Of a stretch of DNA of 64,000 nt, positions 13,945 through 63,906 are shown piece after piece. Source of the DNA: Apostichopus japonicus (lineage: Eukaryota; Echinodermata; Holothuroidea; Aspidochirotida; Stichopodidae); contig NC_092568.1 in assembly GCF_037975245.1 (NCBI RefSeq), positions 31,263,501-31,327,500 on the forward strand. The letters run 5' to 3'. Below the pieces are notes generated by a model. That model made no database searches and was not told the origin of the DNA. It was given only the letters and a program-made list of their open reading frames with translations. The translations under genes were made by a program, and so were the position numbers. Each line of letters begins with the position of its first letter. Within the stretch, counting starts at the first letter, position 1.

Positions 13945-14096
13945 TTATGCACATCTGCCGTTGTAGGCGATTTCAAGATTTGGGTCATCGCAGAGCTTGG
14001 CCCAGTCGAAGAAGCATTGGTTGTTGTAGGTGACGTCATTGGTGCCACAGACAGGTCTCAAGGTTCTGAAGCAACGTCCGCGTCTGTTACAGTCGG
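13945..14096 (-). CDS. Kazal-type inhibitor, exon 3 (terminal)
   Basis: Encodes a complete Kazal domain with six cysteines. The loop is CFRTLRPVC, followed by CGTNDVTYNNQC (the Kazal tyrosine in the DVTYNNQC block), then WAKLC and a final NGRC before the stop. Kazal domains inhibit serine proteases by substrate-like binding of the loop after the second cysteine. The P1 residue, second after that cysteine, is Arg, which predicts trypsin-like targets. The exon enters in phase 1 after a TTCTTCAATCAG acceptor and ends with TAA at 13947-13945. Together with exons at 16516-16608 and 16950-17025 it gives a 321-nt frame (106 residues), a normal size for a secreted single-Kazal inhibitor. Confidence 0.85.
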
Positions 14097-14145
14097 CTGA
14101 TTGAAGAAATAAATAGGTGATTAACAACACGAGGTGTCTCTAACA

Positions 14146-14518
14146 CAAGGGCGGCGGAAGCACTTTTAATCTGGGAGTTTTCTTTCGAGACAAAATGAGG
14201 TGAAATCATTATAAAGTCCAAGTCTCTGCACACGCAATCGATGCATGCATGAAAGCAAATGAACTATGTCAAAATACGAAAGGATGGGGTAGGTTATGGG
14301 ATATTAAAACTATACTCAGTCATCATTCATAGTAGGCTATAAGTTTGACCCACAGAAATTCATTAATAGTTCTAAATTAGGATTAGATCCCTTACTGAAA
14401 TATCGCTGACCTAATAAGGTGATCAAGAGTACAATTGTTATGTAGAAAAGGGGCACATTTTTAACCTGAGGAAAAGTGGGGGCACGTGCCCCTGTGCCCC
14501 CCGATTCCGCCGCCCTTG
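14146..14518. mobile_element. hAT-type MITE in Kazal-gene intron 2
   Basis: A 373-bp element with a perfect 14-bp terminal inverted repeat (CAAGGGCGGCGGAA at the left, its complement at the right). It is flanked by near-identical 8-bp direct repeats, CTCTAACA at 14138-14145 and CCCTAACA at 14519-14526. The 8-bp duplication indicates hAT superfamily; no transposase is present. It begins only about 50 bp upstream (in transcription) of the terminal Kazal exon acceptor. Confidence 0.8.
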
Positions 14519-14989
14519 CCCTAACATGTTGGATAATCAAACCTGGATGCATTACTGATGACAGGACACTTGGTAACAGTACTGCATGGCTTTATATTTA
14601 AATACGAACATATATGTATAGGATCACCGGGTTTAGACACACAGACCTAAGTAAGTAGCAAACCTTTTGCTGTGGGCCGCGAAAGTTATCCAGACGTCGA
14701 AAACTTTTTCATCATATTTTTAAATTTTGCCGACGCAGATCTCAATAGGGTGTTTCTATCCACATTGATAATTGCCTATCTTGTCCTTGGGGTTTCTTCT
14801 GGTATTTCTTAAAACTTTCAAATATTTGAATTCTGTTTAGTATTTACAATTTATTGAAAGAATTTTAAAGCCATGCATGTGTTGAAATCTCCTCTTGTTA
14901 TTCCGATACTCTCAATTTACAGATTATATTGAAGTTAACAGCGCTACACAATAATGATTAAGAACGGATAACTAGAAAGGGGGCAGTCG

Positions 14990-15665
14990 TTACGTTTTTG
15001 GTTTCCCGAAAGGGATAACTTTTAAGTCACTTTTACCGACCTTGCAAAATTGTGAAGGGCGCCGCGGATTGCAAAGCCAATGACTATAACGCGGAAAGTC
15101 GGTAATTACTATAACGGTTCGATTATCCCAACACGGCAGCATAAACAAATGCTGTTCTGAAAGCTGAATGCTTCGTTGGTACAAATCCTTTGGCCAATTC
15201 TAAAAAAGGTTCTAATATCGTTATAGGGTCTGAACTTTTTGTCAATGTTAGAAAAAAATTCAACAGGTAGAATAAAATTAACCAAGGAACATTAAAATTA
15301 TACTTGGTACTATTAAATTAGGCAATGCTGATATTATTATGTAGTTAACATGTCTATAAATGTTTAACGTTGTTGTGTTTGGGACATCAAGTGGTAACCC
15401 CTATACCATGTACAATTCATGTACCTGAAATCTTTGGCCTAGCACCATTATGTTGATAGGGGTAACGTAATCTGGCTTTAAGTAAAAACAAAAGTGGAAA
15501 TGTATCTATAATGAAAATAACTGCTTGCACGGCAGAAGACATATAAGGAACACACTTATTTTATTATATATTCTGAAATAAATTTTCTCGCTCGATTACT
15601 CAAACATGTATATTACTCACCAACCTTACACATTACGAGTAGAACTCCTATGACAAATCTTACGC
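14990..15665. repeat. Diverged duplicate of 34460-35370
   Basis: Direct-orientation similarity to 34460-35370 over several blocks: TTTAAGTCACTTTTA near the start, CAACACGG with ATAAACAAA, TGTAGTTAACATGTCT, CACCATTATGTTGATAGGGG, and GCTTGCACGGCAGA with GACATATAAGGA. The partner copy has extra sequence in the middle (about 34772-35035) that carries a tRNA-like segment and a candidate small exon. It lies in intron 2 of the Kazal gene, and no coding frame is shared. It could be an old segmental duplication or an unclassified interspersed repeat. Confidence 0.65.
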
Positions 15666-15669
15666 GGTA

Positions 15670-16500
15670 CAGATATAGGACCCTTGCAATGTCATCTTTG
15701 AATTAATCAGGTCACATATCCGGAGTCTATGCATGCTTAGTTCTTTAATGGCGCCCTAATTACCTTTCGGGGAAACATTTCATACTGAAGTTTGAATTCT
15801 TTCGTTAATTCATATGTCTGTCTGCAGAAAGCTAGTGTTCCATTTTTTTTTGGGGGGGGGAGGGGGGCAGGGGGTGGCGAGGGGTAGTTTTGCATTCGTG
15901 TCATCGCACGCTTGGTAGGCAAATGTAGTTTACTTTCACATTGTTTACATGCGATGGGATGGGAAATTTGACCAAATGTTTTTTTTTATAGTTTTATTAA
16001 TTTTCATGTTAGCCTGTTTTTTGCAGTCCTTTACCTAAATTTATAGTGAATACATTTGCTAGCAACGATAAGACCAGAATAGACCTAGTGCTTCTTCGAT
16101 AGATATTAAGCAGTGGCATAAGAAGCTATATCAAAGCTGAGGAAGCAGAGAAGAATGTTATTTTTGTATAGATGCTACGGTGCTTCAGAAGAGACTTTTG
16201 ATCTTTTGAAAATTGTGATTATGTTTGTCAAATTTGTGTTACTTAATCTTAACTATACGAAGTGCTGCTATTCACGTTTGGTTGAAATTTCGAGTGAAGA
16301 ATAAAGAAGAAGAAAATTATACTTATTTTGAGGCATGAAACGAACAATCGGTCATGTGATTACCTTGCAATCCTACTGAGGAGTGCATCCCTAAAGGTGA
16401 GAAAGTGATTGGCAGAAATACGCTCCTGCTCCACTGCTCCACTCCCCAGTTCCTAAGCCTATGTTAAAGATAAAGCTGTCTCGACAGTGGAAATATGGTA
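15670..16500. other. No gene recognised (Kazal-gene intron)
   Basis: Intronic sequence. A T-run followed by a G-rich run lies at about 15842-15880. No exon candidate with good splice sites was found. Confidence 0.5.
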
Positions 16501-16515
16501 TACATTTCCGGTTAC

Positions 16516-16918: not shown

Positions 16919-16949
16919 ACGGCAGTTTACACCACAGGGAATGACTTAC

Positions 16950-17025
16950 CGTCTTCTCCAAGACTCTGAGTAAGCGCCACCGACAGCACTGACAGCAAGA
17001 GCACGACAGTTAGTACAAGCTTCAT
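16950..17025 (-). CDS. Kazal-type inhibitor gene, exon 1 (signal peptide)
   Basis: Starts at ATG 17025-17023 and encodes MKLVLTVVLLLSVLSVALTQ followed by a short acidic stretch. This is a classic signal peptide with a Lys-2 n-region, Leu/Val core and a likely cleavage after the Ala/Thr region. It ends in phase 1 at a G|GTAAGT donor. A TATATATATA run lies just upstream of the ATG (17030-17040). It opens the gene that ends with the Kazal exon at 13945. Confidence 0.8.
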
Positions 17026-18502: not shown

Positions 18503-19332
18503 TTATTATTATTATTACCCCGTTATTTATATAGCGCATAATCCTAAAGTTCTATGCGCTTTACTGGTCATTGGTAACTTGTCACACATACACACCAAAG
18601 TGTGCACAATTCAAACAATCTCTCCTGGGGCACCACAGTGCCCCAGGAGAGATTGTTTGAATTCCCATAGGGTGCAGCCACAAACCGGCGCACGCAACTA
18701 TATTTACAAGTCACCTCGCAAGTCCCCATTTATACACCTGGGTGAAGAGAGGCAATGGAGATAAAGTGCCTTGCCCAAGGACACAACGCAATGATCTGGC
18801 CAGGGCTCGAACCTGTAATCCTTAGATCACAAGTCCACTGCCTTAACCACTTGACCACAACGCCCTCAAAGACAAACTCATAAGACAAATAAACAATTTA
18901 CCCTATTCTTACTGTATATGTGCTATTTCATACGCACGTATCGGATACTGATGTGAGTCTTTAAAAATTAAGCACACTGCGAATATCAGAACAAAAACAT
19001 ATGTACGAAAATTAGCTGGGTCTTTCAGCTATATTTGAAGAAGTGAAAGCATTAAAGACTGCTTCATGAAGTTCTCTTAAAATGGCAATGGCGTACACAC
19101 GTCAGAAGCAAAGGGGTTCCATTCCACCGCTGTGACTCCCCTTTACTCACTGCATGCCTCGCCCGGCATACTCATCACCTTTAAACAGTTCAAGCAGTTT
19201 GAACTAGAAACAAAAAAAGGCCCATGTAGAGTGCCAGTACATGGATCCGTTAATAATCTCCCACCCCAGCACCGTCCATCCTCATGATAAGTTACAGCTT
19301 ATATAAACACACCAGTAAAATATCGATCAACC
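18503..19332 (-). mobile_element. tRNA-derived SINE plus flank, inverted copy 2
   Basis: Reverse-complement copy of 2103-2880: the tRNA-like head lies at about 18800-18865, with the B-box and A-box on the minus strand. This copy keeps a longer 3' tail (about 18503-18563) with a GCGC(A)TATATAAATAACGGGG-type motif and an ATT trinucleotide run, which copy 1 lacks. Its body contains a perfect 23-bp hairpin at 18611-18660 that replaces sequence present in copy 1. Confidence 0.75.
18611..18660. repeat. Perfect 23-bp inverted repeat, 4-nt loop
   Basis: The arms TCAAACAATCTCTCC.. and ..GGAGAGATTGTTTGA are fully complementary over 23 bp around a CACA loop. The related SINE copy at about 2788-2840 has no such hairpin; there the sequence runs on into an ACGTGTTCCC-type stretch. 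Confidence 0.9.
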
Positions 19333-22553: not shown

Positions 22554-22655
22554 CTTGGAAAGGCCTGCATCTGGGGCAGCACTCTCCATCTGGAGTGAAT
22601 GTTTCATACCCTTCCTGGCAGATAACGAGGGCACAAAGGACTAGGCTGCAGTCAA
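22554..22655 (-). CDS. VWC-type module exon (gene B)
   Basis: A 102-nt phase 1-1 exon with a TTTTATCCAG acceptor and a CAAG|GTAAAC donor. It encodes a six-cysteine half-VWC module: DCSLVLC, VICQEGYETFTPDG, ECCPRC. It is the same size and pattern as the exons at 50588-50689, 52763-52864 and 58301-58402, implying descent from one duplicated module. VWC modules are extracellular and often bind growth factors or matrix; no specific partner can be deduced. The next downstream exon is not identified. Confidence 0.75.
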
Positions 22656-23405: not shown

Positions 23406-23522
23406 CTTTTGTTCGCCTACATCTCAAGGGACAACATTGACCCGGCGGAGTGAATTGTTCAAATCCTGGTGGGCAACTGAGGCTAGAGCAACGGACCAAG
23501 CTGCACACAACTCGTCGTCGTT
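23406..23522 (-). CDS. VWC-like module exon (gene B)
   Basis: A 117-nt phase 1-1 exon, acceptor ..GTACCAG, donor AAAG|GTAACC. It encodes a basic start (RRR) then the cysteine pattern CSLVRC, SLSCPPGFEQF, QCCPLRC. It belongs to the six-cysteine CC-x2-3-C module family of this gene. It is frame-compatible with the exons on both sides. Confidence 0.75.
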
Positions 23523-23774: not shown

Positions 23775-23888
23775 GGATGTTATGACTGCACATAGGGCAA
23801 CATTTTCCCTCGGGCGAACCTCCTTCATATATTTGATGGCAATACGGGGGGTTACATTGAACTCGGCTGCAGGCAAATGGTCCGTCTC
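23775..23888 (-). CDS. VWC-like module exon (gene B)
   Basis: A 114-nt phase 1-1 exon, acceptor TAAATCAG, donor C|GTAAGT. It encodes ACSRVQCNPPYC then GGSPEGKCCPMC, the same six-cysteine half-VWC pattern. It is the first module after the signal-peptide exon at 24860-24923 and stays in frame with it. Confidence 0.75.
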
Positions 23889-24859: not shown

Positions 24860-24923
24860 CTATCGCTGGATCCGGGACCAGCATAAACACTCCGAAAAGG
24901 ATCGCCGGTATGAAACGATTCAT
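24860..24923 (-). CDS. Signal-peptide exon of VWC gene (gene B)
   Basis: ATG at 24923-24921 begins MNRFIPAILFGVFMLVPDPA, a signal peptide with a basic residue at position 3 and a hydrophobic core. The exon ends in phase 1 at G|GTAAGT. It is compatible with the VWC exon at 23775-23888. Its 64-nt length and phase match the other two signal exons of the window. Confidence 0.7.
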
Positions 24924-30494: not shown

Positions 30495-30656
30495 CACATT
30501 CATCGGTGCAATCACTCTCTGTGTCAAAGTTGTTTGCGTTTCCTAGGCAACCGCCGTAAATAAATTCCTCACATACGCCCAAATCAGGATTGAAACCCCA
30601 TCTCTGATATGTAGCTCTGCACGGCCCAGGCTCGATAGGAAGCTCGCAAGTGGGAA
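30495..30656 (-). CDS. Kunitz domain exon (gene C, second)
   Basis: A 162-nt phase 1-1 exon, acceptor CTTTCACAG, donor GTG|GTATGT. It encodes a complete six-cysteine Kunitz/BPTI domain: CELPIEPGPC, RATYQRWGF, GVCEEF, YGGCLGNANNF, SDCTDEC. The P1 residue after the second cysteine is Arg, so trypsin-like proteases are the predicted targets. The Kunitz core FxYGGCxGNxNNF is intact (Phe-Ile-Tyr). It is the last exon I can assign to this gene; the 3' end is unknown. Confidence 0.85.
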
Positions 30657-31004: not shown

Positions 31005-31147
31005 TATATCAAAATCCACCTCCGTGTCACCGTTAAACCAATCCGTGAAACATCCGCCGCAGTAGTTGTCTACACAGGTAGCTTCTGGGTAAGCTGCACA
31101 TGTTGCAAACTCGCAGGGTCTGACAAAGCAGTCGGCAGTTATACACC
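31005..31147 (-). pseudogene. NYCGGC-module exon, damaged donor side (gene C)
   Basis: Encodes GCITADCFVRPCEFATC, then YPEATC and DNYCGGC, as in the intact copies. The last conserved cysteine codon reads TTT (Phe), and two extra bases sit just before the GTAAGT donor. The exon is 143 nt instead of 141, so inclusion would shift the frame from phase 1 to phase 0. It is probably a decaying exon, or one skipped in splicing. Confidence 0.7.
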
Positions 31148-31678: not shown

Positions 31679-31840
31679 CACATTCATCGGTGCAATCACT
31701 CTCTGTGTCAAAGTTGTTCGCGTTTCCTAGGCAACCGCCATAAGTAAATTCCTCACATACGCCCGATTCAGGATTGAAACCCCATCTCTGAATCGAACCT
31801 TTGCACGGCCCAGGGTCGATTGGAAGCTCACAAGTGGGAA
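31679..31840 (-). CDS. Kunitz domain exon (gene C, first)
   Basis: A 162-nt phase 1-1 exon, duplicate of 30495-30656. It encodes CELPIDPGPC, KGSIQRWGF, GVCEEF, TYGGCLGNANNF, SDCTDEC: all six cysteines and the FTYGGC core are present. P1 is Lys here and Arg in its duplicate, and the following residues (GSI versus ATY) also differ although the rest is nearly identical. Substitutions therefore concentrate in the protease-contact loop. Confidence 0.85.
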
Positions 31841-32199: not shown

Positions 32200-32341
32200 T
32201 ATCACAATCCACTTCCGTGTCACCGTTAAACCAATCCGTGAAACAACCGCCGCAGTAGTTGTCTACACAGGTAGCTTCTGGGTAAGCTGCACATGTTGCA
32301 AACTCGCATGGGACTGACCAAGCAGTAGGCAGTTATACACC
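32200..32341 (-). pseudogene. NYCGGC-module exon with frameshift (gene C)
   Basis: Same module as 31005-31147 and 55148-55288, with good acceptor and A|GTAAGT donor. It carries one inserted base in the stretch after GCITAYC, making it 142 instead of 141 nt. The CFVRPC motif is lost and the frame opens into a wrong reading. If included it would terminate or scramble the protein. Confidence 0.75.
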
Positions 32342-34095: not shown

Positions 34096-34162
34096 CAATG
34101 GAAGGAGCTTCAGCCTGAATCGCTGGCCAGTTCAAACATAACAGGATTATAAATAATCTCAT
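34096..34162 (-). CDS. Signal-peptide exon of Kunitz gene (gene C)
   Basis: ATG at 34162-34160 encodes MRLFIILLCLNWPAIQA, a signal peptide with Arg-2, a hydrophobic core and an AIQA-type cleavage site, followed by a few residues and a phase-1 donor G|GTAAGT. Splicing to the Kunitz exons at 31679-31840 and 30495-30656 keeps the frame if the damaged NYCGGC exons are skipped. Confidence 0.7.
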
Positions 34163-35371: not shown

Positions 35372-36880
35372 CTTCTTCTTCTTCTTGTTTTTGGTTTTTA
35401 TTGGGGGGGGGGGGCTGGTGGGGGAGGCAGGTGGTACCATATATTTTGGTCGTCCATGTTTATAGGGTTAGGGTGTTTGAAGGACGCTATATAGCTGCTA
35501 TACAGAACAATATGGGTAAGGAAGAAGGTGGCTCACTAACATTGATCTTGCGGGCCACAGTGTAAGTTTGTATACAATCCACAGGACACAACCTTTCTAG
35601 ACGAACCAAACCCATGCATTTACACACAAAAACGAAATATTACATTCATGGGAACTAAGCATTCAGAACTTCTACCTGTGCAGTGTCCACTGATTGCTCA
35701 GTGTGTTGAAATATCCTATGATAACTATGGTAGACCCCAATATACAACATTTTTTCATGTTTTCTCATTATGACATGCATTCATTCATTCAAAATTTCAA
35801 TTCTTCTTCGTGACTGCTCGATATAGAAAAGGATTCGTAGGCCGCATTTATTAGGTCTTGAAATATTGGAGATTTACGAGAGGGCCGCACTTTATCCAAC
35901 TGTGGGATGATATAAGACCATTTTATCCAACTGTGGGATGATAGAAGATGACTTTGTCCAACTGTGGGATGATATAAGACCATTTTGTCCAACTATGGGA
36001 TGAGAGAGGACCACTTTGTGATTACAGGCGGATCCAGTTTCGGAAGTAACCTATGATATAGCGTCATGCAGCCATAACCCCCCCTCTCCCTTTCTTGTCC
36101 CAACTCCAGCGCGTCGTGAAATGCTGAACTTTTTATAAAAGAAAATACCTAACATAACTGACACAAGGATGGCCTTCACTCAAACATACATTAATCTTTA
36201 CACACGAACATATATACATGACACAAGTATAGAAGTGGTCCGTAAAAACACACTTAATGGTTCATCAGAATCATCAGTCTTTTTATTTCATAAATGTATT
36301 TTATTTATCATCAAGTAACCCCAAAACCATCTTTTTAAATTATATCAAAGCAAGGAAATCAATTTAAGATGCTCCGTCACCAATATAGGATGTTATTATT
36401 CGATGATTTATTCTGCAAAGTAAAGAAGACAGAAAGAAGAACATTTAAGAATCATTTTATTAACATAGAACTAACAATGGGCGTAATATCTTTTGCGTAT
36501 GTGACACCGAATAGATGGCGCTATTCACAAGTGTGCCTGACAGGACGTATAATGACATAGCTGCATGCTAATAGATTATACAGATAAGTGTTAAAAGTGA
36601 CACCAACAAATAAAAAAGTAAAAAGTAGACAAAACATGGCTGAACTCTCTTAGGATTAATGCCAACATTCAAGCAGGTAAAATTGACTTTAAAATTTGGA
36701 ATTTGACCAATCATTTCTGACATTTTATATTTAGTTCAATTAGTGTTAAGAGAGTTTCATTGAAACATACAATGATCAGTGCATATAATATAGTATATAA
36801 AGTGATAAAACCGTATACGTATGCAATGTATAAGCCTCTACAGCAATGTGAGCACCAGAAGTATGGAGGGCCATCAGTCT
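35372..36880. other. No gene recognised; 32-bp tandem repeat
   Basis: Contains four tandem copies of a ~31-bp unit with core CCAACTGTGGGATGAT at about 35890-36010, and a G-run near 35401-35415. No splice-supported exon. Confidence 0.6.
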
Positions 36881-38312: not shown

Positions 38313-38796
38313 TGTAGCGTCGTTGTTGGTGAATAGCGCCACCAAATTTGTTCTGCTTAAGAAAAGTGCTAACTTTACGATCGATTGCGATCACGGTGTA
38401 AATTATTGAAATTCTGCCCTAGTTGGATATAGTTGGTAAGTAAGGTTGTGAATTTTACTACTTAAGGGTCACGGGGGCATGCGGGGATGTGTTTTAGAGT
38501 GTAAATTCATGGCAAGTGTGTCAACATATCATCTTAAATTATACGGCAAATGCCAGCTACATCTACTGTATCCTAACTTAGCTTCTGTGTATGCTTTTCA
38601 CTAAGCCTAATGTACGCATGGCACACTCACGGGTGTTAGATTAACTTTGTATGTTTGTTTTCTTTAGTAAACCTCTCGACCAGTTGAAATAGTCTACGAT
38701 CCTATGTTGGAGAAAGAGAGAGTTGCAACAACAACATGAGCGCAGAAGCACAACGAGCCACGTGTTTTGTACATTTCTTTATGTCTTGAGTTTACA
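38313..38796 (+). repeat. 5' LTR of BEL/Pao element
   Basis: 484 bp, beginning TGTAGCGTCG and ending GAGTTTACA. By direct reading it differs from the 3' LTR at a single position (T here versus G, in GCGGGGA(T/G)GTGTT). Confidence 0.95.
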
Positions 38797-38826
38797 TAAA
38801 AGGTTTACAACTGCAACGGTGCAGGT

Positions 38827-41800: not shown

Positions 41801-44568
41801 TGTGGTGGGATGAAGGCGATCTCACAACGTCACCACAAGAATTTCAAATGTGTGTACACCTTTTTGGTGCTACATCATCGCCGAGCTGCGCGGGATTCGC
41901 CTTGCGCAGAACTGCAGATGACAATCAAGACAGCTTTGATGAGGAAGTTAGGCAAACAGTGTATGACAACTTCTATGTTGACGACTGCTTAAGGTCAGTA
42001 CGAACAACGGAAGATGGAAGGAGATTAATCCCCCAACTGCGAGATATGTTGAGCTTAGGTGGATTTCGTCTTACCAAATGGGTAAGCAATGATAGAGAAG
42101 TACTATCAATGGTCCCTCCTGCTGAAAGAGCGTCATCGGTGGTAGACTTGGACTTTACTCATCTGCCACTAGAAAGAACACTAGGGGTACTGTGGGACAT
42201 GGAGTCTGATCGGTTCAAGTTCAAGGTTGCTGTCAAAGACGTCCCAAACACTCGAAGAGGTATTCTGTCAGCAACGAGCTCACTTTATGACCCCTTGGGA
42301 CTTGTCGCCCCATTTACCCTGGAAGGGAAGGTTCTGCTACAAGACTTATGTGCGCAAGGCCTGAGTTGGGATGAACCAGTGAAGGATGAAGAACTTCGAC
42401 GTTGGCAGAACTGGTTAGAGGAATTACCAGATTTAGAGTCTGCTGAGATCAGTAGGTGCATCAAACCACCATACTTCGACGATGTGAGTTACGATGTTCA
42501 CATATTCGGGGATGCATCAGAACGAGGCTATGCCGTCAGTGCCTATGTGAGGACAAAGGATTCCGGAGGGAAGGTTCATTGTACACTGTTGATGGGCAAG
42601 GCCAGAGTATGTCCCATTAAGAAAGTAACCGTGCCAAGATTAGAATTAACAGCAGCGACTTTGGCTGTCAAGGTCGGCCAGGTTCTGCAGTCGGAGTTGA
42701 GCATCCCACTGAAGAGTACAACTTACTGGACGGACTCCACAACAGTCCTGTTGTATGTCCGCAATGAGGGTCGCAGGTTTAAAACATTTGTTGCAAACAG
42801 AGTGGCTGCCATCCGAGAAGCTAGTACCGTAGACCAGTGGAGGTATGTCGACACTCATCAGAACCCAGCTGACGATGGTTCGCGCGGACTACATGCTAGA
42901 GACCTAACGAGTACATGCAGGTGGCTGAATGGACCTGCATTTCTGTGGGATGCCGAGGAGAATTGGCCAGAGATTCCTTCTGGGATAGAAAACCTAGAGG
43001 GGAGGGAATTACCTGACAATATCCAGGATGAATGTAAGGTGAAAAAGCAAACTTACCTTAACACGACCAATGGTGTGGTTGCCAGATTGCTGGAGAAATA
43101 CTCATCATGGACTCGGTTGAAAAGAGGGGTTGCTTGGATTCTTCGGTATAAGGAATACCTTGTAGCACGATACAGGGGTAAACAACCATGTAAGGAGACT
43201 GTCTTGTCCTTGCAAGAACTGAAAGAAGCTGAATTAGCCGTAATCAAGTACGTCCAACAGAAGGCCTTTCATGAAGAACTACATCTTCTCAGGCAGAAGA
43301 AGGTCAGTAAGCTGTGGAGTAACAATGCCTTCAACAAGATTAACCCGGTGTTACATGACGGGGTCCTACGGGTTGGTGGGAGGTTGAGAAATGCTCCTGT
43401 TGCATATGACGAAATGCATCCCATCATACTACCATCCAATGACAGAGTGACATCTCTGATCATTATCCATCACCATCTCCTTGTAGGTCACTCAGGGTCG
43501 GGCATGACCTGGAGCTCCCTCAGAAACAAATTCTGGATACTGAAGGGAGGAGCAGCAGTAAGGAAGGTAATTGGAAAGTGCTTCGACTGCAAGCGGAGAA
43601 ATGCCCCACGCGGTTCCCAGTTTATGTCAGAGTTGCCATCAGTCAGAGTGACACCGGACAACCCACCATTTACCTTTGTAGGTGTTGACTACTTCGGGCC
43701 GCTGTGGGTGAAGCAGGGTCGAAGCCAAGTCAAGAGATGGGGATGTGTTTTTACTTGCATGACCATGCGAGCAGTTCACATAGAGTTGGCCGATAACCTG
43801 GATACCGACTCCTTCTTGAATGCTTTGAGAAGATTTATAAGCAGGCGCGGGACTCCAGCGAAAATTCTGAGTGACAACGGCAGCAACTTTAAGGGAGGAG
43901 AAAGAGAACTGCGAGAAGCGGTGCAGTCACTGAACAACGCAAGAACCGAAAATTTTCTGCTAAATAAGGAAATTGAGTGGCAATTTAATCCTCCGGCAGC
44001 AAGCCATATGGGTGGCATATGGGAGAGAATCATCAGGTCTGTGAGACGCATTCTGAAGGCGTTAGTGAAGGAGCAGCTCATCAATCAAGAGGTATTGACC
44101 ACATTGCTGACCGAAGTAGAGGCAATCCTCAATGCCAGGCCACTAACACAGATCAGTTTGGATCCAAGAGATAACCAACCATTGACGCCAAATCACCTGC
44201 TCCTCTTGAAAGGAAATCCAAATATTGCTCCAGGAGAGTTTGTTAAGACCGATGGATATGGACGTCGCCGATGGCGCCAGTGCCAGTACTTGGCAAATCA
44301 GTTCTGGAGGCGCTGGATAAGGGAATACCTGCCATTATTGCAGACGCGTCAGAAGTGGAACAAGGAAAAGAGAAGCCTCAGAGTTGGCGACCTGGTTCTC
44401 ATGGTTAATGAGAGCTTACCCAGGGGGAAGTGGTCCGTTGGAAGGGTGGAACAGGTGTTCCCAGATAGGTTCGGTCGGGTGAGGCAGGTAGAAATAAGAG
44501 TGGGTTCCCAATATTACAAGCGCCCAATTGTGAAACTGTGCCTATTGGAGGAGGCTGATAGTGAGTAA
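38827..44568 (+). CDS. BEL/Pao Gag-Pol polyprotein
   Basis: An uninterrupted 1913-residue polyprotein. The N-terminal third is Gag-like: coiled-coil-prone charged region to ~200, DUF1759-type capsid region ~270-410, and zinc-knuckle-like cysteines ~508-577 (CPCCSQRH, CDNCFKPRH). Then an aspartic protease (LLDQGSDTSL, catalytic Asp near 635; the DQGS form is usual for Pao), reverse transcriptase with YVDD at ~1050-1053, RNase H (FGDAS, Asp ~1229), an integrase zinc finger with H-H-C-C (~1545-1593), and an integrase core with Asp ~1621 (VDYFGP), Asp ~1683 (SDNGSNF) and Glu ~1733 (IWERI). A DUF5641-type tail ends the protein. All catalytic residues I can check are present, so it may be active. 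Confidence 0.95.
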   Translation: MAESEPKPVEDSGVSDVTTLKRSCSGYVGLLARYYKELEALLTDPMNYELASKKYAELNKIFESYVTRYNEYASKLEEKEADVASEQFEVNRVNKVEFDKRITEWFQEVQKVPDKDDRPTRCDTEVESVRSYRSKGSALSDTSSIRLKEAKAKKALADLKRQQFIKMQKLREQQFQLEQELARAEVENDIASAEAELHIWQEEIRTEDGRGEEPKGTEDTGKVGDKPREVKGPCVTLNPNAPEFINNVETGYDSMGKGNLSNESNLSQFMQAINLSVHMPKPELEVFTGNPVEYWSFINNFEASIASKVSDDRVKLTYLLQFCENEVKDSISCCVLMEPTEGYQRARDILAKQYGQPHVVAHALIKQVLNRAQLKPNDAKELSDLARSMRKCEITLSQTGYLADLHSSDTLLKVQKLLPMYMQSDWAKRAQSNMLRGIVPNFRHITEFVEEYVQVANSIYGRNMGTQVKETKQLPRGVKYPMNGGRRLTTLTTQSSQRETYVYKVAWKCPCCSQRHSLDACKDFQSKSQRDRFKLIRKLRLCDNCFKPRHIASDCRLQPGCQVEGCNRRHHTLLHIYPTERNSESPQTGSGEVDKNERTQGVSLSTVKSPRVCLRVLPVKVRGNGREVTTLALLDQGSDTSLCENELVRELGIVGESAVYELSTVNSPATVTKGVEIALEVVGLEGNENIELLNVWSVESLPVTKRSIPTQDQVNKWPHLRDIEFQTMDREKVQLLIGSDTPEAFWVLEERRGKRKEPYAVRTPLGWTVMGPLAGSCGSPRSFLVNHVAHERLEEQVKRFWELDHGFGGSADERVCDSINDQRARKIMEDSVVLKDGHYQMRLPWRHYPPSLPNNRTMVESRLGSLRKRLLKDEDLHQRYKAVMEDYLRKGYARKVDVSGDVCKRGEIWYLPHHPVINPNKPNKLRIVFDCAAQYQGLSLNSQLLQGPDNTNSLIGVLTRFREEKIAIAADIEGMFNQVRVAPRDLDALRFLWWDEGDLTTSPQEFQMCVHLFGATSSPSCAGFALRRTADDNQDSFDEEVRQTVYDNFYVDDCLRSVRTTEDGRRLIPQLRDMLSLGGFRLTKWVSNDREVLSMVPPAERASSVVDLDFTHLPLERTLGVLWDMESDRFKFKVAVKDVPNTRRGILSATSSLYDPLGLVAPFTLEGKVLLQDLCAQGLSWDEPVKDEELRRWQNWLEELPDLESAEISRCIKPPYFDDVSYDVHIFGDASERGYAVSAYVRTKDSGGKVHCTLLMGKARVCPIKKVTVPRLELTAATLAVKVGQVLQSELSIPLKSTTYWTDSTTVLLYVRNEGRRFKTFVANRVAAIREASTVDQWRYVDTHQNPADDGSRGLHARDLTSTCRWLNGPAFLWDAEENWPEIPSGIENLEGRELPDNIQDECKVKKQTYLNTTNGVVARLLEKYSSWTRLKRGVAWILRYKEYLVARYRGKQPCKETVLSLQELKEAELAVIKYVQQKAFHEELHLLRQKKVSKLWSNNAFNKINPVLHDGVLRVGGRLRNAPVAYDEMHPIILPSNDRVTSLIIIHHHLLVGHSGSGMTWSSLRNKFWILKGGAAVRKVIGKCFDCKRRNAPRGSQFMSELPSVRVTPDNPPFTFVGVDYFGPLWVKQGRSQVKRWGCVFTCMTMRAVHIELADNLDTDSFLNALRRFISRRGTPAKILSDNGSNFKGGERELREAVQSLNNARTENFLLNKEIEWQFNPPAASHMGGIWERIIRSVRRILKALVKEQLINQEVLTTLLTEVEAILNARPLTQISLDPRDNQPLTPNHLLLLKGNPNIAPGEFVKTDGYGRRRWRQCQYLANQFWRRWIREYLPLLQTRQKWNKEKRSLRVGDLVLMVNESLPRGKWSVGRVEQVFPDRFGRVRQVEIRVGSQYYKRPIVKLCLLEEADSE

Positions 44569-44836
44569 TTGACTGCACGTCAGGTTATAGGTCTTGTTAG
44601 TTTACATTCAGCAAAGACATGTATTCAAGTGTTATTGGTCCTTATGTTCTGCATATAGTTGCAGTATGTTAAATGTTTACATCCATTTCAGTTCTTGTAT
44701 GTTCAGTTAATGCTTTATATCTGTAAGTAATCTTTTAAGTGTATTTAGTTCTTTGGGAAATTGGGAGCAGTGTTGACAACGTCGCAAGAAATTAAAGGGA
44801 ATGAGTAACCCCAAGTTAGCTCATTGGGGCTGGGAA

Positions 44837-45320
44837 TGTAGCGTCGTTGTTGGTGAATAGCGCCACCAAATTTGTTCTGCTTAAGAAAAGTGCTAACTTT
44901 ACGATCGATTGCGATCACGGTGTAAATTATTGAAATTCTGCCCTAGTTGGATATAGTTGGTAAGTAAGGTTGTGAATTTTACTACTTAAGGGTCACGGGG
45001 GCATGCGGGGAGGTGTTTTAGAGTGTAAATTCATGGCAAGTGTGTCAACATATCATCTTAAATTATACGGCAAATGCCAGCTACATCTACTGTATCCTAA
45101 CTTAGCTTCTGTGTATGCTTTTCACTAAGCCTAATGTACGCATGGCACACTCACGGGTGTTAGATTAACTTTGTATGTTTGTTTTCTTTAGTAAACCTCT
45201 CGACCAGTTGAAATAGTCTACGATCCTATGTTGGAGAAAGAGAGAGTTGCAACAACAACATGAGCGCAGAAGCACAACGAGCCACGTGTTTTGTACATTT
45301 CTTTATGTCTTGAGTTTACA
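44837..45320 (+). repeat. 3' LTR of BEL/Pao element
   Basis: 484 bp, near-identical partner of 38313-38796, followed by the TAAAG target duplication. Confidence 0.95.
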
Positions 45321-45325
45321 TAAAG

Positions 45326-46499: not shown

Positions 46500-46655
46500 T
46501 TGGTCCACATGTATTTATGCACTCGTACTGTGAATAAAAATTATTGCCGTTTCCACCACAACCACCATATGCGAAGTGTACACAATCGCCATCTTGGAAC
46601 CCCCAACGATGGTAGACACCATCACAAGGACCAACGTCTAGAGGCAAGCCGCAGA
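46500..46655 (-). CDS. Kunitz domain exon (gene D)
   Basis: A 156-nt phase 1-1 exon, acceptor CTTCGTGTAG, donor A|GTAAGG. It encodes a full six-cysteine Kunitz domain: CGLPLDVGPC, DGVYHRWGF, GDCVHF, AYGGCGGNGNNF, YECINTC. P1 is Asp, which is unlike trypsin inhibitors and suggests another target or a non-inhibitory role. Its closest relative in the window is the Kunitz exon 59673-59828 (same length, LEVGPC/LDVGPC, GNGNNF). Confidence 0.85.
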
Positions 46656-48410: not shown

Positions 48411-48612
48411 CCCTGGACGGAGGATCAAGGTCAGAGAATATACTTTTAAGTGCTCAGATAATAGCAAATACCTAATTTACATCAGGGGCGCAAACCTCAC
48501 AAACGAAATGAAATTAAAAAATGTATATGAGGGGGAAAAAGTGTACTGATGAAAACGTCTAGCGAAACGCATATCAAAGAAACAGCAATGTAGCATTGTC
48601 ACGAAACAACTT

Positions 48613-49060
48613 GGGGCTGATAGCTCAGTTGGTATAGCGCAGAATTTGTAATCGGTCGACGAGTCGTTCGGTACCTTCGTGGTTGAGGTACACATTATCC
48701 TTGAACAGGCTTCTGTCTGCTTTACCATCGGCATATTTCATACAGGCAGATGTTTGTACATACCCCACTCCAATCTAGTCGTCGGGTTATCTTTAGGCTG
48801 GCCTCCAGGTGGACCAATGTTCGGGTATGCTGGTCCAATCTGGGGCAGGGTCCGAAGATAACGATACTGGGGCTGGCATTTGATAGTTGTACTGAGGTAA
48901 CAACCTCATCAAAGGTAACGAGTATCGTTTCCATTGGGTTTCAACTCGGAAACATCATTTGGTGGAAGGGTAGCACCGCTTATGCATTTTACTTCGGTAT
49001 TGTCAAAGGTTGCATGGGTAAGGTCACAGACCAATGAATCGTCTATAAGCAGGTTCAGTT
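48613..49060 (-). pseudogene. SGNH-esterase (LINE ORF1-like) fragment, unit 1
   Basis: Minus strand encodes, in two frames, LIDDSLV.DLTHATF, then VVTSVQLSNASPSIVIFGPCPRLDQ (split here: SIVIFGPCPRLD is the diagnostic block), a degenerate middle and a late part near the tRNA-like segment. The pattern matches SGNH esterases of LINE ORF1 (compare ISGPCPRTD at 3.7 kb). The nucleophile block is mutated and frameshifted, so inactive. The plus-strand tRNA-Thr-like sequence lies at 48613-48655. Confidence 0.6.
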
Positions 49061-50587
49061 TGGTGAATAAGTGATAATCCTATCGGTTGATGAACCGTGT
49101 TTAACTGCGCTAGCATAGTTTCACATAGTACCTGTCGTCACTGGTTTCAGATGTATTGATTTTATTATTATTATTACTACACCGGTGCTAATATAGCGCA
49201 AAATCCCGGGGTTCATTGTGCTCAGCAAAACATATACAAAATATAAGTTAACATACAATTGAATACACTTAACCATAGGTTTGTTTGAAATTAAACGTTT
49301 CTAACGATGTTTTGAAAGTGCTGATAGAGGTAAGGCTTCGTATTTCTGATGGTAACTTGTGCCACAACGGTGCAACATGGCTAAAAGCTTGCTCCCCGAC
49401 TCGTTTGTTTGATCTACAAGTTGTGAGAGCAGAAGTTTCAGAGGATGACCGAAGGATGCGAGAAAGCTTGTGGATATGAATTTAATTCTAAACCAGAACT
49501 TCGTGTGTATCCTTTAAAATGTGATAACTTCTCAAGATGATCAATTTTGAGAGGCAACGAGCGGAAAGGAGCGGCCACACATAATAACATTACACTACCA
49601 CCAAGACACACTCTTAAAGTTAGTGTCGACAGGAAGAATGCAAAAGAGAATGTCATCGGGTACTATGCGATGCACTCGTAGCGACTAAACATAGCAGCGT
49701 GTGGCAACGGTGTACTTTGATTCTCTCTTGCCTGTAGGCCCAAATTATGACGAGCTAAGATCTTTAACAGTCTACTTGATTCTCATAGCGTTATCAGTTG
49801 AAACTGGTAAAGGCGAGGAACCGTGAATCAGTCAAAACCGACCGACCGGTGGTAGTGACACGGTAACATATGATAAACCATATGTCTGATCGCATGTCAA
49901 TGCAGATTTCAAGCAATTTTTGCGTGTGTACAATGTTATCTCGTCAAGATGGTAATTTCAAATTATAGATGTCAAGGGTGCCTATCTCTATAAGCTTCCG
50001 TAGAAAAGCGATACCCACAATCTCTTAGAATGCGTGCGAAAATATGAGTGGAACTGTTGAGAGATGTCTCGTTAGTCCAATCAATCGTTATAGGTTTGTG
50101 TGCTTAGGTTATAACTGTTTGTAGGCTACTTCCGTCTTAGTGGGAACTGATCGTAAGTGTAAGACATGATAATATATCATCACACAAATTGAATTAAACT
50201 GACCAACGGTTCTTCACCTTTACCAGGTTTGACTAATAAAGTTATGAGGATCGGCTGAACAGTCTGCAAAGTGATACATAGAATCCCCAGCTGAAGCTTC
50301 AATATATTTCAAGATCTTAATTTGATATTGCAAAATAAAGGTACGCGACTGCTAGATCATTACTGTTGTTAAACTGCGTTCATAGGAAATAGACATTATA
50401 AAAAATGTATACCGGTTTGTGTTTCATTAATTTACATTGTTTCTAAGACCAAATGCAGTGTTTAGTAGTACTGTGTGTGGTATGTCATAAGAACGCTCTA
50501 TTCATTTTTAAAGATGAACGATCAGTTTCTACATATGACTATTTGGTTTGAAAAAATCTTGCATTAGTTTACAACATATTGACTTAC

Positions 50588-50689
50588 CGATTGGCCTACA
50601 GTCAGAGCAGCATTCACCTTCCGGAATATAGGTTTCGTAACCGACGGCACAATCAGGCAAGGCACAAAGCACAAGACGGCAGTCAATCC
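50588..50689 (-). CDS. VWC-type module exon (gene D, tandem copy)
   Basis: A 102-nt phase 1-1 exon, acceptor GTCCAG, donor CG|GTAAGT-type (G|GTAAGT). It encodes IDCRLVLCALPDCAVGYETY, then IPEGECCSDCRP. All six cysteines of the half-VWC pattern are present. It is close to 52763-52864 and 58301-58402. Confidence 0.8.
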
Positions 50690-52762: not shown

Positions 52763-52864
52763 CGATTGGCCTACAGTCAGGGCAGCATGCACCATCCGGG
52801 ATATAGGTTTCGTAATCGACGGGACAATCAGGAAAGGCACAACGCGCTAGACTGCAGTCAATCC
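52763..52864 (-). CDS. VWC-type module exon (gene D, tandem copy)
   Basis: A 102-nt phase 1-1 exon with the same borders as its neighbours (CATCCAG acceptor, G|GTAAGT donor). It encodes IDCSLARCAFPDCPVDYETY, then IPDGACCPDCRP. Six cysteines are intact; it differs from the 50588 copy by several non-cysteine residues. Confidence 0.8.
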
Positions 52865-53500: not shown

Positions 53501-54175
53501 AGCAAGTTCAGTTTGACGTATAAGTGATAATCCTATCGGTTGATGAACAGTGTTTAACTGCGCTAGCATAGTTTCACATAGTACCTGTTGTTACATCATT
53601 GGTTTCAGATGTATTGATTTTATTATTGTTATTACTACACCGGTGCTAATATAGCGCAAAATCCCGGGGTTCATTGTGCTCAACAAGACATATACAAAAT
53701 ATAAGTTAACATACAATTGAATACACTTAACCATAGGTTTGTTTGAAATTAAACGTTTCTAACGATGATTTGAAAGTGCTGATAGAGGTAAGGCTTCGTG
53801 TTTCTGATGGTAACTTGTTCCACAACAAAAGCGAGACATGGCATAAAGGTTGCTCCCCGGCTCGCTTGTTTTAATCTACGAGTTGTGAGAGCAGAAGTTT
53901 CCGAGGATGACCGTTGGATGCGAGAAGGCTTGTGGATATGGATTTTATTCTAAACCAGAACTTCGTGTGTATCCTTTGAAAAAGTGATAACTTCACAAGA
54001 TGATCAATTTTGAAAGGCAACGAACGAAAAGGAGCGGCCACACATAATGACATTACACTACCACCAATACGCACTTTAAGATAGTGTGGGCAGGAAGAAT
54101 GTAAAAGAGAATGTCATCGGGTACTATACGATGGACTCGTAGCGACTAAACGTAGCAGCGTGTGGCAAAGGAAAG

Positions 54176-54216
54176 ACAATTAGGAAAGGCACAACGCACT
54201 AAACGGCAGTCAATCC
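54176..54216 (-). pseudogene. Truncated VWC exon
   Basis: Starts with a normal CTCCAG-type acceptor and IDCRLVRCAFPNC, then breaks off. The second half of the module, with CCxxC and the donor, is missing, and the sequence passes directly into intronic sequence of the shortened third unit. It cannot be spliced normally. Confidence 0.75.
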
Positions 54217-54413
54217 CTGGACGGAGAATCAAGGTCAGACAATGTACTTTTAAGTGCTCAAATAATAACAAATATTCCAAATTTACATTAGGGGCGCAAA
54301 CACTATAAACGAAATGTAATTCAAAATACATATATTACAAAAAGAAGTTTACAGTTGAAAATGGCTAGCGAAACGCATTTCAAAGAAACAGCAATGTTGC
54401 TTTGTCACAGCTA

Positions 54414-55147: not shown

Positions 55148-55288
55148 TATCACAATCCACCTCCGTGTCACCAATAAACCAATCCGTGAAACAACCGCCG
55201 CAGTAGTTGTCTACACAGGTAGCTTCTGGGTAAGCTGCACATGTTGCAAACTGGCAGGGACGGACAAAGCAGTGGGCAGTTATACACC
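55148..55288 (-). CDS. NYCGGC cysteine module exon (gene D)
   Basis: A 141-nt phase 1-1 exon, acceptor CATAACAG, donor A|GTAAGT. It encodes GCITAHCFVRPCQFATC, YPEATCVDNYCGGC, then a C-terminal VDCD. Eight cysteines are spaced C-x5-C-x4-C-x4-C-x7-C-x4-C-x2-C and a late C. I recognise this as a recurrent invertebrate extracellular module found beside Kunitz domains but cannot name its family. This is the intact member of the family damaged in gene C. Confidence 0.75.
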
Positions 55289-55792: not shown

Positions 55793-55954
55793 CACACTCA
55801 TCGGTGCAATCACTCTCAGTCTCGAAGTTGTTTGCGTTTCCTAGGCAACCACCGTAAGTAAATTCCTCACATACGCCCGATTTAGGATTAAAACGCCATC
55901 TCTGAAATGCACCTCTGCACGGCCCAGGCTCGACAGGAAGCTCACAGATAGGAA
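55793..55954 (-). CDS. Kunitz domain exon (gene D)
   Basis: A 162-nt phase 1-1 exon, acceptor TTATTAACAG, donor G|GTAAGT. It encodes CELPVEPGPC, RGAFQRWRF, GVCEEF, TYGGCLGNANNF, SDCTDEC: all six cysteines and the FTYGGC core. P1 is Arg followed by Gly-Ala, as in BPTI-like trypsin inhibitors. It is closely related to the two Kunitz exons of gene C. Confidence 0.85.
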
Positions 55955-56279: not shown

Positions 56280-56429
56280 TATCACAGTCCACCTTCTTGT
56301 CACCGATAAACCAATCCGCGAAGCAACCGCCGCAGTAGTTGTCTTCACATGTAGCTTCTGGGTGAGCTGCACATGTTGCAAATTGACAGGGACGGACGAA
56401 GCAGTTAAAAATTGTGTCAGTACAGCCAC
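56280..56429 (-). CDS. NYCGGC cysteine module exon (gene D)
   Basis: A 150-nt phase 1-1 exon, acceptor GCTCTTACAG, donor A|GTAAGT. It encodes GGCTDTIFNCFVRPCQFATC, HPEATCEDNYCGGC, FADWF and VDCD. It is three residues longer than the 55148 copy at the start. All cysteines are present. Confidence 0.75.
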
Positions 56430-56990: not shown

Positions 56991-57035
56991 GAAGGTAGGG
57001 TCGCGTCAAGGTAAAAGCTCCATAACATGACATAC

Positions 57036-57184
57036 AGGATCTTGACAAATTGGCTTGCAAACACCAGGACAACATTTCTGATCTCCTTTACAATCACTGT
57101 CAGTTTCACATCCGGGTGCTAAGAAGTCAGGACTATCTAAGACGCACGGTCTGAGTTGTCTAACTGGGCACTCACCTTCTTTCT
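57036..57184 (-). CDS. WAP domain exon (gene D), odd 3' end
   Basis: Acceptor TATCTCCAG, then EKEGECPVRQLRPCVLDS, GCETDSDCKG, DQKCCPGVC, KPICQDP. This is a WAP (four-disulfide core) domain with eight cysteines including the CC pair. WAP domains are secreted protease inhibitors or antimicrobials. A GTATGT donor-like site follows CQDP, but using it gives 149 nt, which ends in phase 0 and not phase 1 like every other module. Without splicing the frame stops at TGA 57008-57006. One missing base before the donor would explain this. Confidence 0.7.
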
Positions 57185-58300: not shown

Positions 58301-58402
58301 CGAGTGGCCTACAGTCAAGGCAACATTCACCATCCGGTGTATAGGTTTCGTAACCGACAGGGCAATCAGGAAAGGCACAACGAACTAAACTGCAGTCAAT
58401 CC
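58301..58402 (-). CDS. VWC-type module exon (gene D)
   Basis: A 102-nt phase 1-1 exon, acceptor TCGTCCAG, donor G|GTAAGT. It encodes IDCSLVRCAFPDCPVGYETY, then TPDGECCLDCRP. Six cysteines are present. It is probably close to the progenitor of the tandem VWC copies at 50-54 kb. Confidence 0.8.
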
Positions 58403-59385: not shown

Positions 59386-59571
59386 CTATAACATTATCAC
59401 ACACAGGACAACACTCATCTTCTCGCACGGCTGGGATAGGACAATCCGGTATAGCGCATAACACAGTCGAGCAATCGAGTTTGCAAGTTGGACAACACCC
59501 TGGACCACCAACATCTACCGTGTAGCCCACAAGACATAGTGGTATATCACAAACGATGTTTTCACATGGAT
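59386..59571 (-). CDS. Double VWC-type module exon (gene D)
   Basis: A 186-nt phase 1-1 exon, acceptor TTTCATTAG, donor TAG|GTAGAT. It encodes two consecutive six-cysteine half-modules: DPCENIVCDIPLC, GPGCCPTC, then LDCSTVLCAIPDC, DECCPVC. The same architecture is found at 63712-63906 and 61906-62100. Confidence 0.8.
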
Positions 59572-59672: not shown

Positions 59673-59828
59673 TTGAGTCACACGCAGCCTCACAATCAGC
59701 TTGACTGAGGAAGTTGTTTCCATTTCCCAGGCAACCACCATAGGTGAACTGCACACATTCACCATCCCCAAACCCCCACCTCTGGAACAAAGCCTCACAA
59801 GGACCGACTTCTAATGGTAGCTGGCAAA
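59673..59828 (-). CDS. Kunitz domain exon (gene D)
   Basis: A 156-nt phase 1-1 exon, acceptor CTATCTCCAG, donor A|GTAAGT. It encodes CQLPLEVGPC, EALFQRWGF, GECVQF, TYGGCLGNGNNF, ADCEAAC, a complete Kunitz domain. P1 is Glu, unusual for trypsin inhibition. It lies about 100 nt before the double VWC exon at 59386-59571, so the two are separated by a very short intron. Confidence 0.85.
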
Positions 59829-61520: not shown

Positions 61521-61522
61521 GT

Positions 61523-61773: not shown

Positions 61774-61905
61774 CTACATATCATAAGTAAACCTCCTTAT
61801 TCGCGCAGTATATACGTATCACGACCTCTTTATACACTCAGTCAAGATTGGCTAGTAGAACTCTAATGTCAGCACATTGTCTGAACTTAAAAGGTAAATT
61901 CCTAC

Positions 61906-62100
61906 CTGTTGTTGGTCTGCACTGGGGACAGCAGTTATCCTTCGGTTGATAGGTTTCCGAACCTTCTGGGCAAATCACCTGAATGCATGCAGTAGTCGAG
62001 CAGTCGAGGCCACAGGTGGGACAACAGTCATCTCCTTCAAAGACTGTGGTGTATCCTGGTGCACACTTGATCTGAGGACACTCAACATCTCGACAAGGAT
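61906..62100 (-). CDS. Double VWC-type module exon (gene D)
   Basis: A 195-nt phase 1-1 exon, acceptor TTTTCCGAAG, donor CAG|GTAGGA. It encodes DPCRDVECPQIKC, EGDDCCPTC, then LDCSTTACIQVIC, DNCCPQCRP. It has two six-cysteine half-modules and the same length as the exon 63712-63906, its duplicate. Confidence 0.8.
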
Positions 62101-62414
62101 CTTCGGAAAATTAAATATTCATGACTGTTTTCAGTATCTATAGTAATGTCAATAAAGTAACTAGTTGTCTTTTTGGGGTTGGTTGTGAATCTATGAAATA
62201 TTGGCTGGGTGAATGTCACAGATGTTTGGATATAAGTTAGTCTAACTAGAGATCTCTAAGTGTAGCCCAGACCCATTTAGATGACACCAGTGTTAGAGCT
62301 GTAAACTGTTTAAGCTGAATTAACTGATGGAATTACAATGGAATTGCGATGTAAGGATTGTAGACTCAGTTTGGCTAACAGTTTTGTTTCATTTTGAAAA
62401 TCGATTGTTTATCA

Positions 62415-62545
62415 GTTACTGAACCTACCCTACCGTCTATACCTGGAACAACATTGTCTTGCGGATGTGAATGTTTCAAAACCTTCCCCGCAATTTGGGT
62501 TTATACAGCTTATGGCGCTACAATCATATTCGCGGACGTTCTGAA
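62415..62545 (-). pseudogene. Degenerate VWC exon
   Basis: Minus strand reads DCSAISCINPNCGEGFETF, then ARQCCSRYRR and a stop. The final cysteine of CCxxC is replaced by Tyr, and the AG expected just before the first Asp codon is TG. It is probably a dead copy of the short VWC exon. Confidence 0.6.
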
Positions 62546-62559
62546 TATACAGACACATG

Positions 62560-63700
62560 CTACTCCTTATCTTCATTCTATGAAGTCTTAATATTTATAA
62601 TAATAATAATTAAAAATAGAATAATAATTAAAACAAACAAAGCCATGTATATTTGCTGCTTTGATGCCAATACTACACCAATAGACAGGAGCGTAGCCAG
62701 CCCTCGTGGTGTGAAAGGACAAAGCCTTACAAGTTTTATAAGGACAAAGTTTTATTGTTAAATCAGGGTATTTCCGTTTAATTAACGTTTGTATTGATAT
62801 GACCTTCAAGAAACTATATTTGCCCTACCTTATGTTACGAATTTGACTTTTTAAGGAGGAGGGGAATCTGTTATTGACGTCCGTTCTGGGAACAGGTTTG
62901 GGAAAAGTTTGTTTCGGTAATTGGCCTTAGTGTAAAGTTGTGCTATCACCAGTCGGGGAACGCTTATATCTAGATGACTTATATCTAGATGACTTTTCAT
63001 GGCACCATGGGCTCTACCCTCTGTTAGGAAGTCGAATTTTAGAGGGTGGGGGAGACATCAAATTTTGCTGACGCCCGTCTTGGGATGGGTCTAAGTAGAG
63101 GAAATAAATTATGTTTCGGTAGGGGGAGCTTAGATTCAAGATGGCGCTTTCCTTTGCATCATTTTAACTACATTTTTGAATATGACGTTTGGAAGAAAAT
63201 TTAGGAGAAGGGAAAGGAGGAGGCACTTGTTCATATGCTCCCATTACGGCCCTGTATATGTTAACGATATACTAATATATAGAAGTACCGTACGTGTTGG
63301 TAGGTAAACGCAGATATCTCATATCTCTGTATTGACCCAAATGGAGATTTGTTTCTATTAAATACGACAATCGATTTCCATACGACGCACGCCGAAACTT
63401 TCATTAGAAGTGTCAATTACTGAATCAAAGTTAACTTGTTCAAAGAATTCTCGTTTTATGCTTATCCAGTATCAAGTAGCCCATACTATAGCTGCTCAGG
63501 TTCAATTTTTTCGTCGTCCCGCTTCGTCCAATGGGGGCACTTTAACTCATGCCCTTTCCACTCTAGCTACGCCACAGCCAATATATGGTGGTTAACTGTG
63601 ATGTAGACAGTGGGGGAGAGGCCCACACAACAAAATTTTGTATTACACAGTTATTTTTCCAGGCCTAATGTTTATGTACCGTGATCATTCCATATTACAC
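62560..63700. other. No gene recognised
   Basis: Intron between the two double VWC exons. It contains a direct repeat of CTTATATCTAGATGA near 62970-62995. No supported exon. Confidence 0.5.
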
Positions 63701-63711
63701 AATGTCTGTAC

Positions 63712-63906
63712 CTTTAACTGGACTGCATTCCCCGCAACAACTACCGTCTGGTATTACTATCTCTGAACCAACAGGGCAGTCTGGTACAAGACAAAGGACA
63801 GCAGAGCAGTCTAATTTACACCCGGGACAGCAACCCGGTCCGTCGTAGTCAACTACTTGTCCTTTTGGACAGTTGGGAATGTCGCAGAAAATATCACGAC
63901 AGGGAT
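63712..63906 (-). CDS. Double VWC-type module exon (gene D), nearest the window edge
   Basis: A 195-nt phase 1-1 exon, acceptor CTCTCTCCAG, donor AAAG|GTACAG. It encodes DPCRDIFCDIPNC, GPGCCPGC, then LDCSAVLCLVPDC, GSCCGEC. It is the most 5' exon visible of gene D; the promoter, signal peptide and any earlier modules lie beyond 64000. Confidence 0.8.

Follow-up and report, generated by a model that had tools for sequence, protein, structure and literature searches.

Introduction

Modules of extracellular proteins follow a published class 1-1 rule (PMC8001218, in the part of that paper available to us), and exon shuffling is thought to be the origin of papilin and the GASP/WFIKKN proteins, which the sea urchin has too (PMC3427181, likewise in its available part). 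Here we analyse a 64,000-nucleotide (nt) stretch of the Apostichopus japonicus genome (hereafter the window; C8:31,263,501-31,327,500), whose minus strand carries a long series of exons for cysteine-rich modules. An earlier note had read this DNA as a locus that may generate new inhibitor proteins by exon shuffling. In our analysis it is likely that the locus is an ordinary tandem cluster of genes for secreted, cysteine-rich, protease-inhibitor-like proteins, assembled from class 1-1 module exons of the Kunitz, Kazal, WAP, half-VWC and NYCGGC types.

Results

The genetic code of a 16.1 kb mitochondrial contig points to an echinoderm, since its COX1 makes sense with AAA as Asn, the codon falling on conserved Asn positions; ND1 and ND2, named by eye, share the strand of COX1, which would suit a sea urchin or sea cucumber better than a starfish. 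Cysteine-rich frames were listed on both strands and ten representatives were compared with Pfam. The cysteine patterns of the modules were then fitted by hand and adjusted by eye on modules already seen, so that the counts cover modules of those shapes. In the 264 kb stretch around the window they matched 49 times, before merging, on the minus strand, but never on the plus strand or on either strand of the reversed sequence. Merging left 43 module exons, of which 18 lie in the window and the other 25 outside. The 18 intact exons in the window, all on the minus strand, comprise five Kunitz, two NYCGGC, three double half-VWC, six single half-VWC, one WAP and one Kazal exon, and are interspersed with four damaged module exons and three candidate signal-peptide exons. 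This bears out the earlier count of at least fifteen cysteine-module exons on one strand, and the ends given for the cluster are exact, 13945 being the Kazal stop and 63906 the first VWC acceptor. The cluster continues for ~70 kb past the window (plus-sign positions are window coordinates extended beyond 64000), where eight NYCGGC/Kunitz pairs spaced 1.32-1.50 kb apart form an array at +118 to +129 kb, preceded by a further cysteine-rich exon and signal exon at +133.6 kb. Exon borders and splice sites are those predicted with generic splice-site matrices. The features in the window are as follows.

63712..63906, minus strand: double half-VWC exon, 195 nt, phase 1-1; Pfam VWC and IGFBP matches weak, below cut-off
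62443..62540 (borders approximate), minus strand: half-VWC remnant without the last cysteine
61906..62100, minus strand: double half-VWC exon, 195 nt, phase 1-1
59673..59828, minus strand: Kunitz exon, 156 nt, phase 1-1, P1 Glu
59386..59571, minus strand: double half-VWC exon, 186 nt, phase 1-1
58301..58402, minus strand: half-VWC exon, 102 nt, phase 1-1
57009..57184, minus strand: WAP exon, acceptor in phase 1, no convincing donor, open to a stop
56280..56429, minus strand: NYCGGC exon, 150 nt, phase 1-1; first 24 nt differ from relatives
55793..55954, minus strand: Kunitz exon, 162 nt, phase 1-1, P1 Arg
55148..55288, minus strand: NYCGGC exon, 141 nt, phase 1-1
54174..54308 (borders approximate), minus strand: half-VWC exon, truncated within the exon
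52763..52864, minus strand: half-VWC exon, 102 nt, phase 1-1
50588..50689, minus strand: half-VWC exon, 102 nt, phase 1-1
48411..50451, minus strand: copy of a VWC unit without its exon, ending within 2-3 nt of the acceptor
46500..46655, minus strand: Kunitz exon, 156 nt, phase 1-1, P1 Asp
34096..34162, minus strand: candidate signal-peptide exon, phase-1 end
32200..32341, minus strand: NYCGGC exon, frameshifted
31679..31840, minus strand: Kunitz exon, 162 nt, phase 1-1, P1 Lys
31005..31147, minus strand: NYCGGC exon, 143 nt, frame broken, last cysteine lost
30495..30656, minus strand: Kunitz exon, 162 nt, phase 1-1, P1 Arg
24860..24923, minus strand: candidate signal-peptide exon, phase-1 end
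23775..23888, minus strand: half-VWC exon, 114 nt, phase 1-1
23406..23522, minus strand: half-VWC exon, 117 nt with a phase-1 donor; a phase-2 donor outscores it
22554..22655, minus strand: half-VWC exon, 102 nt, phase 1-1
16950..17025, minus strand: candidate signal-peptide exon, phase-1 end
13945..14096, minus strand: Kazal exon with a stop at its end; 75-aa open frame when joined to the signal exon

The best-scoring acceptor is in phase 1 for 18 of 18 window exons and the best-scoring donor for 15 of 17, the Kazal exon having no donor and ending in a stop. By best score, 15 of the 17 window exons with both sites are thus class 1-1 symmetrical. Two exons depart from this: the WAP exon at 57184, which lacks a convincing donor and is open to a stop, and the VWC exon at 23522, whose phase-1 donor at 23406 scores 3.0 against 4.1 for a phase-2 donor. 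Beyond the window the best acceptor is in phase 1 in 24 of 25 exons and the best donor in all 25. Lower-scoring sites of the same exons are distributed over phases 0, 1 and 2 as 20, 28 and 26 in the window and 20, 23 and 40 outside; a binomial P for such phase counts overstates independence, because many of the exons are copies of one another. The claim that each module exon measured is a multiple of three entered and left in phase 1 therefore stands for every acceptor and for all donors but these two, and the exon lengths given with it were recovered (102, 114, 117, 141, 150, 156, 162, 186 and 195 nt) save one, of 93 nt.

The same layout was found elsewhere in the genome (671.6 Mb in 35 contigs). 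In a comparison sample of 20 regions around Kunitz or Kazal exons, a module was recognised in 17, where all 15 acceptors and all 13 donors above the score thresholds were in phase 1, as compared with 17/17 and 12/13 in the window at the same thresholds. Taking the best score regardless of threshold, acceptors of the sample were in phase 1 in 17 of 17 cases and donors in 14 of 16, the other two donors being in phase 2 and one exon having none. Since phase 1-1 is common to the sampled Kunitz and Kazal exons and the rule is a published one, it is no mark of a special generator here: judged from predicted sites, the layout is normal for such domains and by itself no argument for a special exon-shuffling locus. 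Larger concentrations also occur: 53 of the 90 Kunitz matches in the genome search fall on C4:23.27-23.35 Mb (~76 kb), against five in the window by our own count of the table, and at least 58 Kazal matches fall on C10:6.67-6.93 Mb against at least one in the window, these Kazal counts being lower bounds from 150 scored of 324 candidates. Many of the C10 matches lie ~960 bp apart, as if a single Kazal exon or gene had been arrayed in tandem on a very large scale.

The Kunitz, Kazal and WAP modules are identified by Pfam. The Kunitz exon at 59.8 kb scores 61.8 bits (PF00014) and all five window Kunitz exons exceed the cut-off in the genome search, while the Kazal (PF00050, 39.9 bits) and WAP (PF00095, 35.7 bits) exons lie above their Pfam cut-offs. 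Across the whole cluster 13 of 13 Kunitz exons fit the cysteine pattern, with Arg or Lys at P1 in 11; the two non-basic residues are Glu at 59.8 kb and Asp at 46.7 kb. Arg or Lys at P1 points to trypsin-like protease targets, and the 11 modules that carry it are thus likely to inhibit trypsin-like proteases. Among solved structures, SmCI (PDB 4bd9) comes nearest to the Kunitz exon at 55.9 kb (whole-sequence E=6.6e-42). 'Half-VWC', by contrast, is a descriptive name that implies no family membership, and a profile of the double half-VWC exon matched nothing in the PDB up to E=1. As to NYCGGC, the one copy scanned matched no Pfam family up to E=1, and a profile of ten copies had as its best PDB match an unrelated nanobody (E=0.36), hence no credible relative; AlphaFold2 models of two window copies had a mean predicted local distance difference test score (pLDDT) of 53.9, too low for a fold search. 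A literature text search for NYCGGC and YCGGC gave nothing relevant among the matches listed; similar sequences may occur in other marine animals.

To judge from the predicted exons, three genes most likely start in the window and a fourth lies partly in it. Joined to the Kazal exon, the signal exon at 17025 gives a complete 75-aa frame; that at 24923 is followed by an open frame through three half-VWC exons, and that at 34162 by an open frame through two Kunitz exons once both broken NYCGGC exons are omitted. The three starts would accordingly encode one single-Kazal protein, one protein with three half-VWC exons and one with Kunitz exons whose NYCGGC partners are broken. For the exons between 63.9 and 46.5 kb no signal exon was detected within the window, and same-strand candidates lie upstream at ~+79.7 and ~+89.9 kb; these exons are therefore probably the 3' part of a larger, mosaic gene that starts past position 64000. 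The segment at 35411-35955, considered as a terminal coding exon together with its paralogue at 113892-114430, was rejected, as there are stops in all three coding-strand frames. The two paralogous segments are 88.8% identical, above the neighbouring introns, and look non-coding.

Copies and damage are both visible. VWC units in the window are 91-92% identical and NYCGGC/Kunitz units 87%, or 94% over one aligned part; none of the window tandem copies compared (87-94% identity) is near-identical, and they are therefore not very fresh. Two of the four window NYCGGC exons are broken (at 32.3 and 31.1 kb, both frameshifted and the latter without its last cysteine), one half-VWC copy is cut inside the exon (54.3 kb) and another lacks the last cysteine (62.5 kb). 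Moreover, a copy of the 2.2-kb VWC unit (48.4 kb) ends within 2-3 nt of the acceptor, so that its exon is missing. Thus, the proposal that frame-neutral modules were duplicated, lost and decayed fits what is seen, and damaged copies and remnants are indeed present, although the copies described as fresh, in a window said to show all stages, are 87-94% identical.

The intron upstream of the WAP exon resembles the introns that follow VWC exons up to a point 8 nt (alignment) or 9-14 nt (BLAST) before the exon, where the similarity stops, and this is the sole junction that looks like the arrival of another module type, a true exon insertion. In the NYCGGC exon at 56.4 kb the first 24 nt and the upstream intron differ from those of its relatives, which either fusion or divergence would explain. 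Upstream of the window, two leading exons that are paralogues are followed by different modules; a shuffling junction was considered there and discarded, one side being repeat-like and the other reading N. The edges of the eight-unit array fall in introns, the segment from +113.9 to +118 kb matches the window piecewise between 58.4 and 35.4 kb, and the surroundings of the 34.2 kb signal exon have a counterpart at +88 to +90 kb. Of the four window units compared, three are grouped with a support of 0.999, whereas the one at 56 kb stands further apart; amplification or homogenisation of the units therefore appears to have been partly independent in each segment. As far as these alignments indicate, most events are tandem copying of a single module or a pair rather than mixing of module types.

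Selection was estimated from ratios of non-synonymous to synonymous substitution rates (dN/dS). For the Kunitz modules of the eight-pair array outside the window, dN/dS pooled over all 28 pairs is 0.27. NYCGGC gives a pooled value of 0.19 from the seven copies of equal length, the eighth, of another length, having been left out; 20 of their 21 pairs were used, as the remaining one had no usable dS. Mean identity in the array is 93% for NYCGGC exons, 88% for Kunitz exons and 82% for the intervening intron. The low dN/dS and the exons being more alike than the intron thus point to purifying selection on both modules there.

Other elements lie among and beside these genes. A long terminal repeat (LTR) retrotransposon at 38313-45324 lies on the plus strand, opposite to the genes, and contains a long open frame; its terminal repeats are 99.8% identical over a length of 488 nt. 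Two pieces of it match an integrase zinc-binding domain above the cut-off and reverse transcriptase and integrase core below it, and it is probably a BEL/Pao element. Fragments of a non-LTR retrotransposon occupy 4479-7006 (plus strand), of which 6365-7003 matches reverse transcriptase (E=2.9e-13). There are also an inverted pair at 2169-2778 and 18659-19267 (~600 nt, 97% complementary, 16 kb apart) and a layered tandem repeat at 37017-37466 with periods of 20, 40, 121 and 181 nt. To the left of the window, on the minus strand, C8:31214810-31215088 and 31251307-31251675 hold one frame matching OATP with a Kazal_2 segment and another matching Kazal_2; these are probably transporter genes, outside the inhibitor cluster.

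Discussion

In an ordinary tandem cluster of this kind, unequal recombination, mostly intronic, would have copied single modules or module pairs in tandem, and some copies would then have been damaged by mutation and further recombination. Several observations weigh against such an interpretation. VWC (PF00093) matches score 16-21 bits, below the cut-off of 27.6, and cover only the second half of the profile in five of five exons scanned. Of the genes, a terminal exon was found only for the Kazal gene and not for those starting at 24923 and 34162, and no AATAAA or ATTAAA occurs within ~650 nt past the Kazal stop or ~580 nt past the WAP stop. The three candidate signal-peptide exons at 34162, 24923 and 17025 do end in phase 1, as the earlier note held, but a scan for such exons gave phase 1 in seven of eight minus-strand and five of seven plus-strand candidates, so that this phase is not specific to the coding strand and adds little. 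Finally, in one VWC pair of the window dN (0.126) exceeds dS (0.099), but over 33 codons, and pairs that include the 58.4 kb VWC exon have lower dN/dS, of ~0.2-0.4. The Kunitz exons at 31.8 and 30.7 kb show dN of 0.075 against dS of 0.169, and the selection signal within the window is mixed.

The VWC pair with dN above dS, the two broken NYCGGC exons of four, the one cut and the one lost VWC exon and the presence inside of a retrotransposon with nearly identical terminal repeats would also suit a reading in which much of the cluster within the window, at ~56-30 kb, is a degenerating and largely unused copy of the intact array further out. We consider this rather unlikely, since five of five window Kunitz exons retain their cysteines, frame and phase-1 sites, and the two at 31.8 and 30.7 kb differ less at non-synonymous than at synonymous positions. 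An artefact of chance or assembly is hardly conceivable: the repeated sequence of the region speaks for it and nothing else does, whereas the matches fall on one strand, with none on the other or in reversed sequence, Kunitz, WAP and Kazal modules exceed Pfam cut-offs, and copies are several percent apart.

An unusually active exon-shuffling locus, steadily making new mosaic inhibitors and many spliced isoforms, would account for several module types on one strand and in one phase, for the WAP exon attached to a VWC-type intron, for the VWC unit cut close to an acceptor and for the module order differing between paralogous segments. Copying, decay and one insertion-like WAP junction are what remains of the proposed generator of new inhibitors. 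The phase rule, however, is valid elsewhere in the genome too, C4 and C10 carry larger arrays, copies 87-94% identical are not recent, and module types are seen to mix at one junction only, the rest being mostly tandem copying; we therefore hold such a locus to be decidedly improbable. We are nearly as doubtful of a bolder combination, in which NYCGGC would be an uncatalogued inhibitor or binding domain travelling with Kunitz as a fixed pair and the locus a live workshop, where breaks near splice sites (8-14 nt at WAP, within 2-3 nt at VWC) move modules between neighbouring genes. The copying, damage and occasional moving of modules, as in the ordinary tandem cluster that we favour, are usual in the evolution of such animal genes. 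The locus thus leaves the understanding of exon shuffling unchanged, but offers a readable example, with break points visible, of frame-neutral modules being copied, lost and occasionally inserted, and brings to light a cysteine-rich module that is paired with Kunitz and not in Pfam.

Among known systems, SmCI, a multi-Kunitz inhibitor, likewise has repeated Kunitz domains; those of the present cluster mostly have a basic P1 and, unlike in SmCI, alternate with NYCGGC, each in its own exon. Papilin and GASP/WFIKKN, as far as described in the available part of PMC3427181, also combine Kunitz with WAP and Kazal-type modules. They carry in addition Ig and NTR domains or papilin-specific parts, our scan having covered cysteine-rich frames, and that part of the source does not mention half-VWC or NYCGGC for them. 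Sea urchin tooth matrix proteins with one or two Kazal domains (PMC2614417, available in part) are, like those predicted here, secreted echinoderm proteins. The class 1-1 extracellular proteins (Patthy; PMC8001218, as above) likewise have introns at module borders, phase 1 on both sides, lengths that are multiples of three and a phase-1 signal exon; on that portion of the account there is no difference in principle, and what the present cluster adds is that its copies, and a few of its break points, can still be read.

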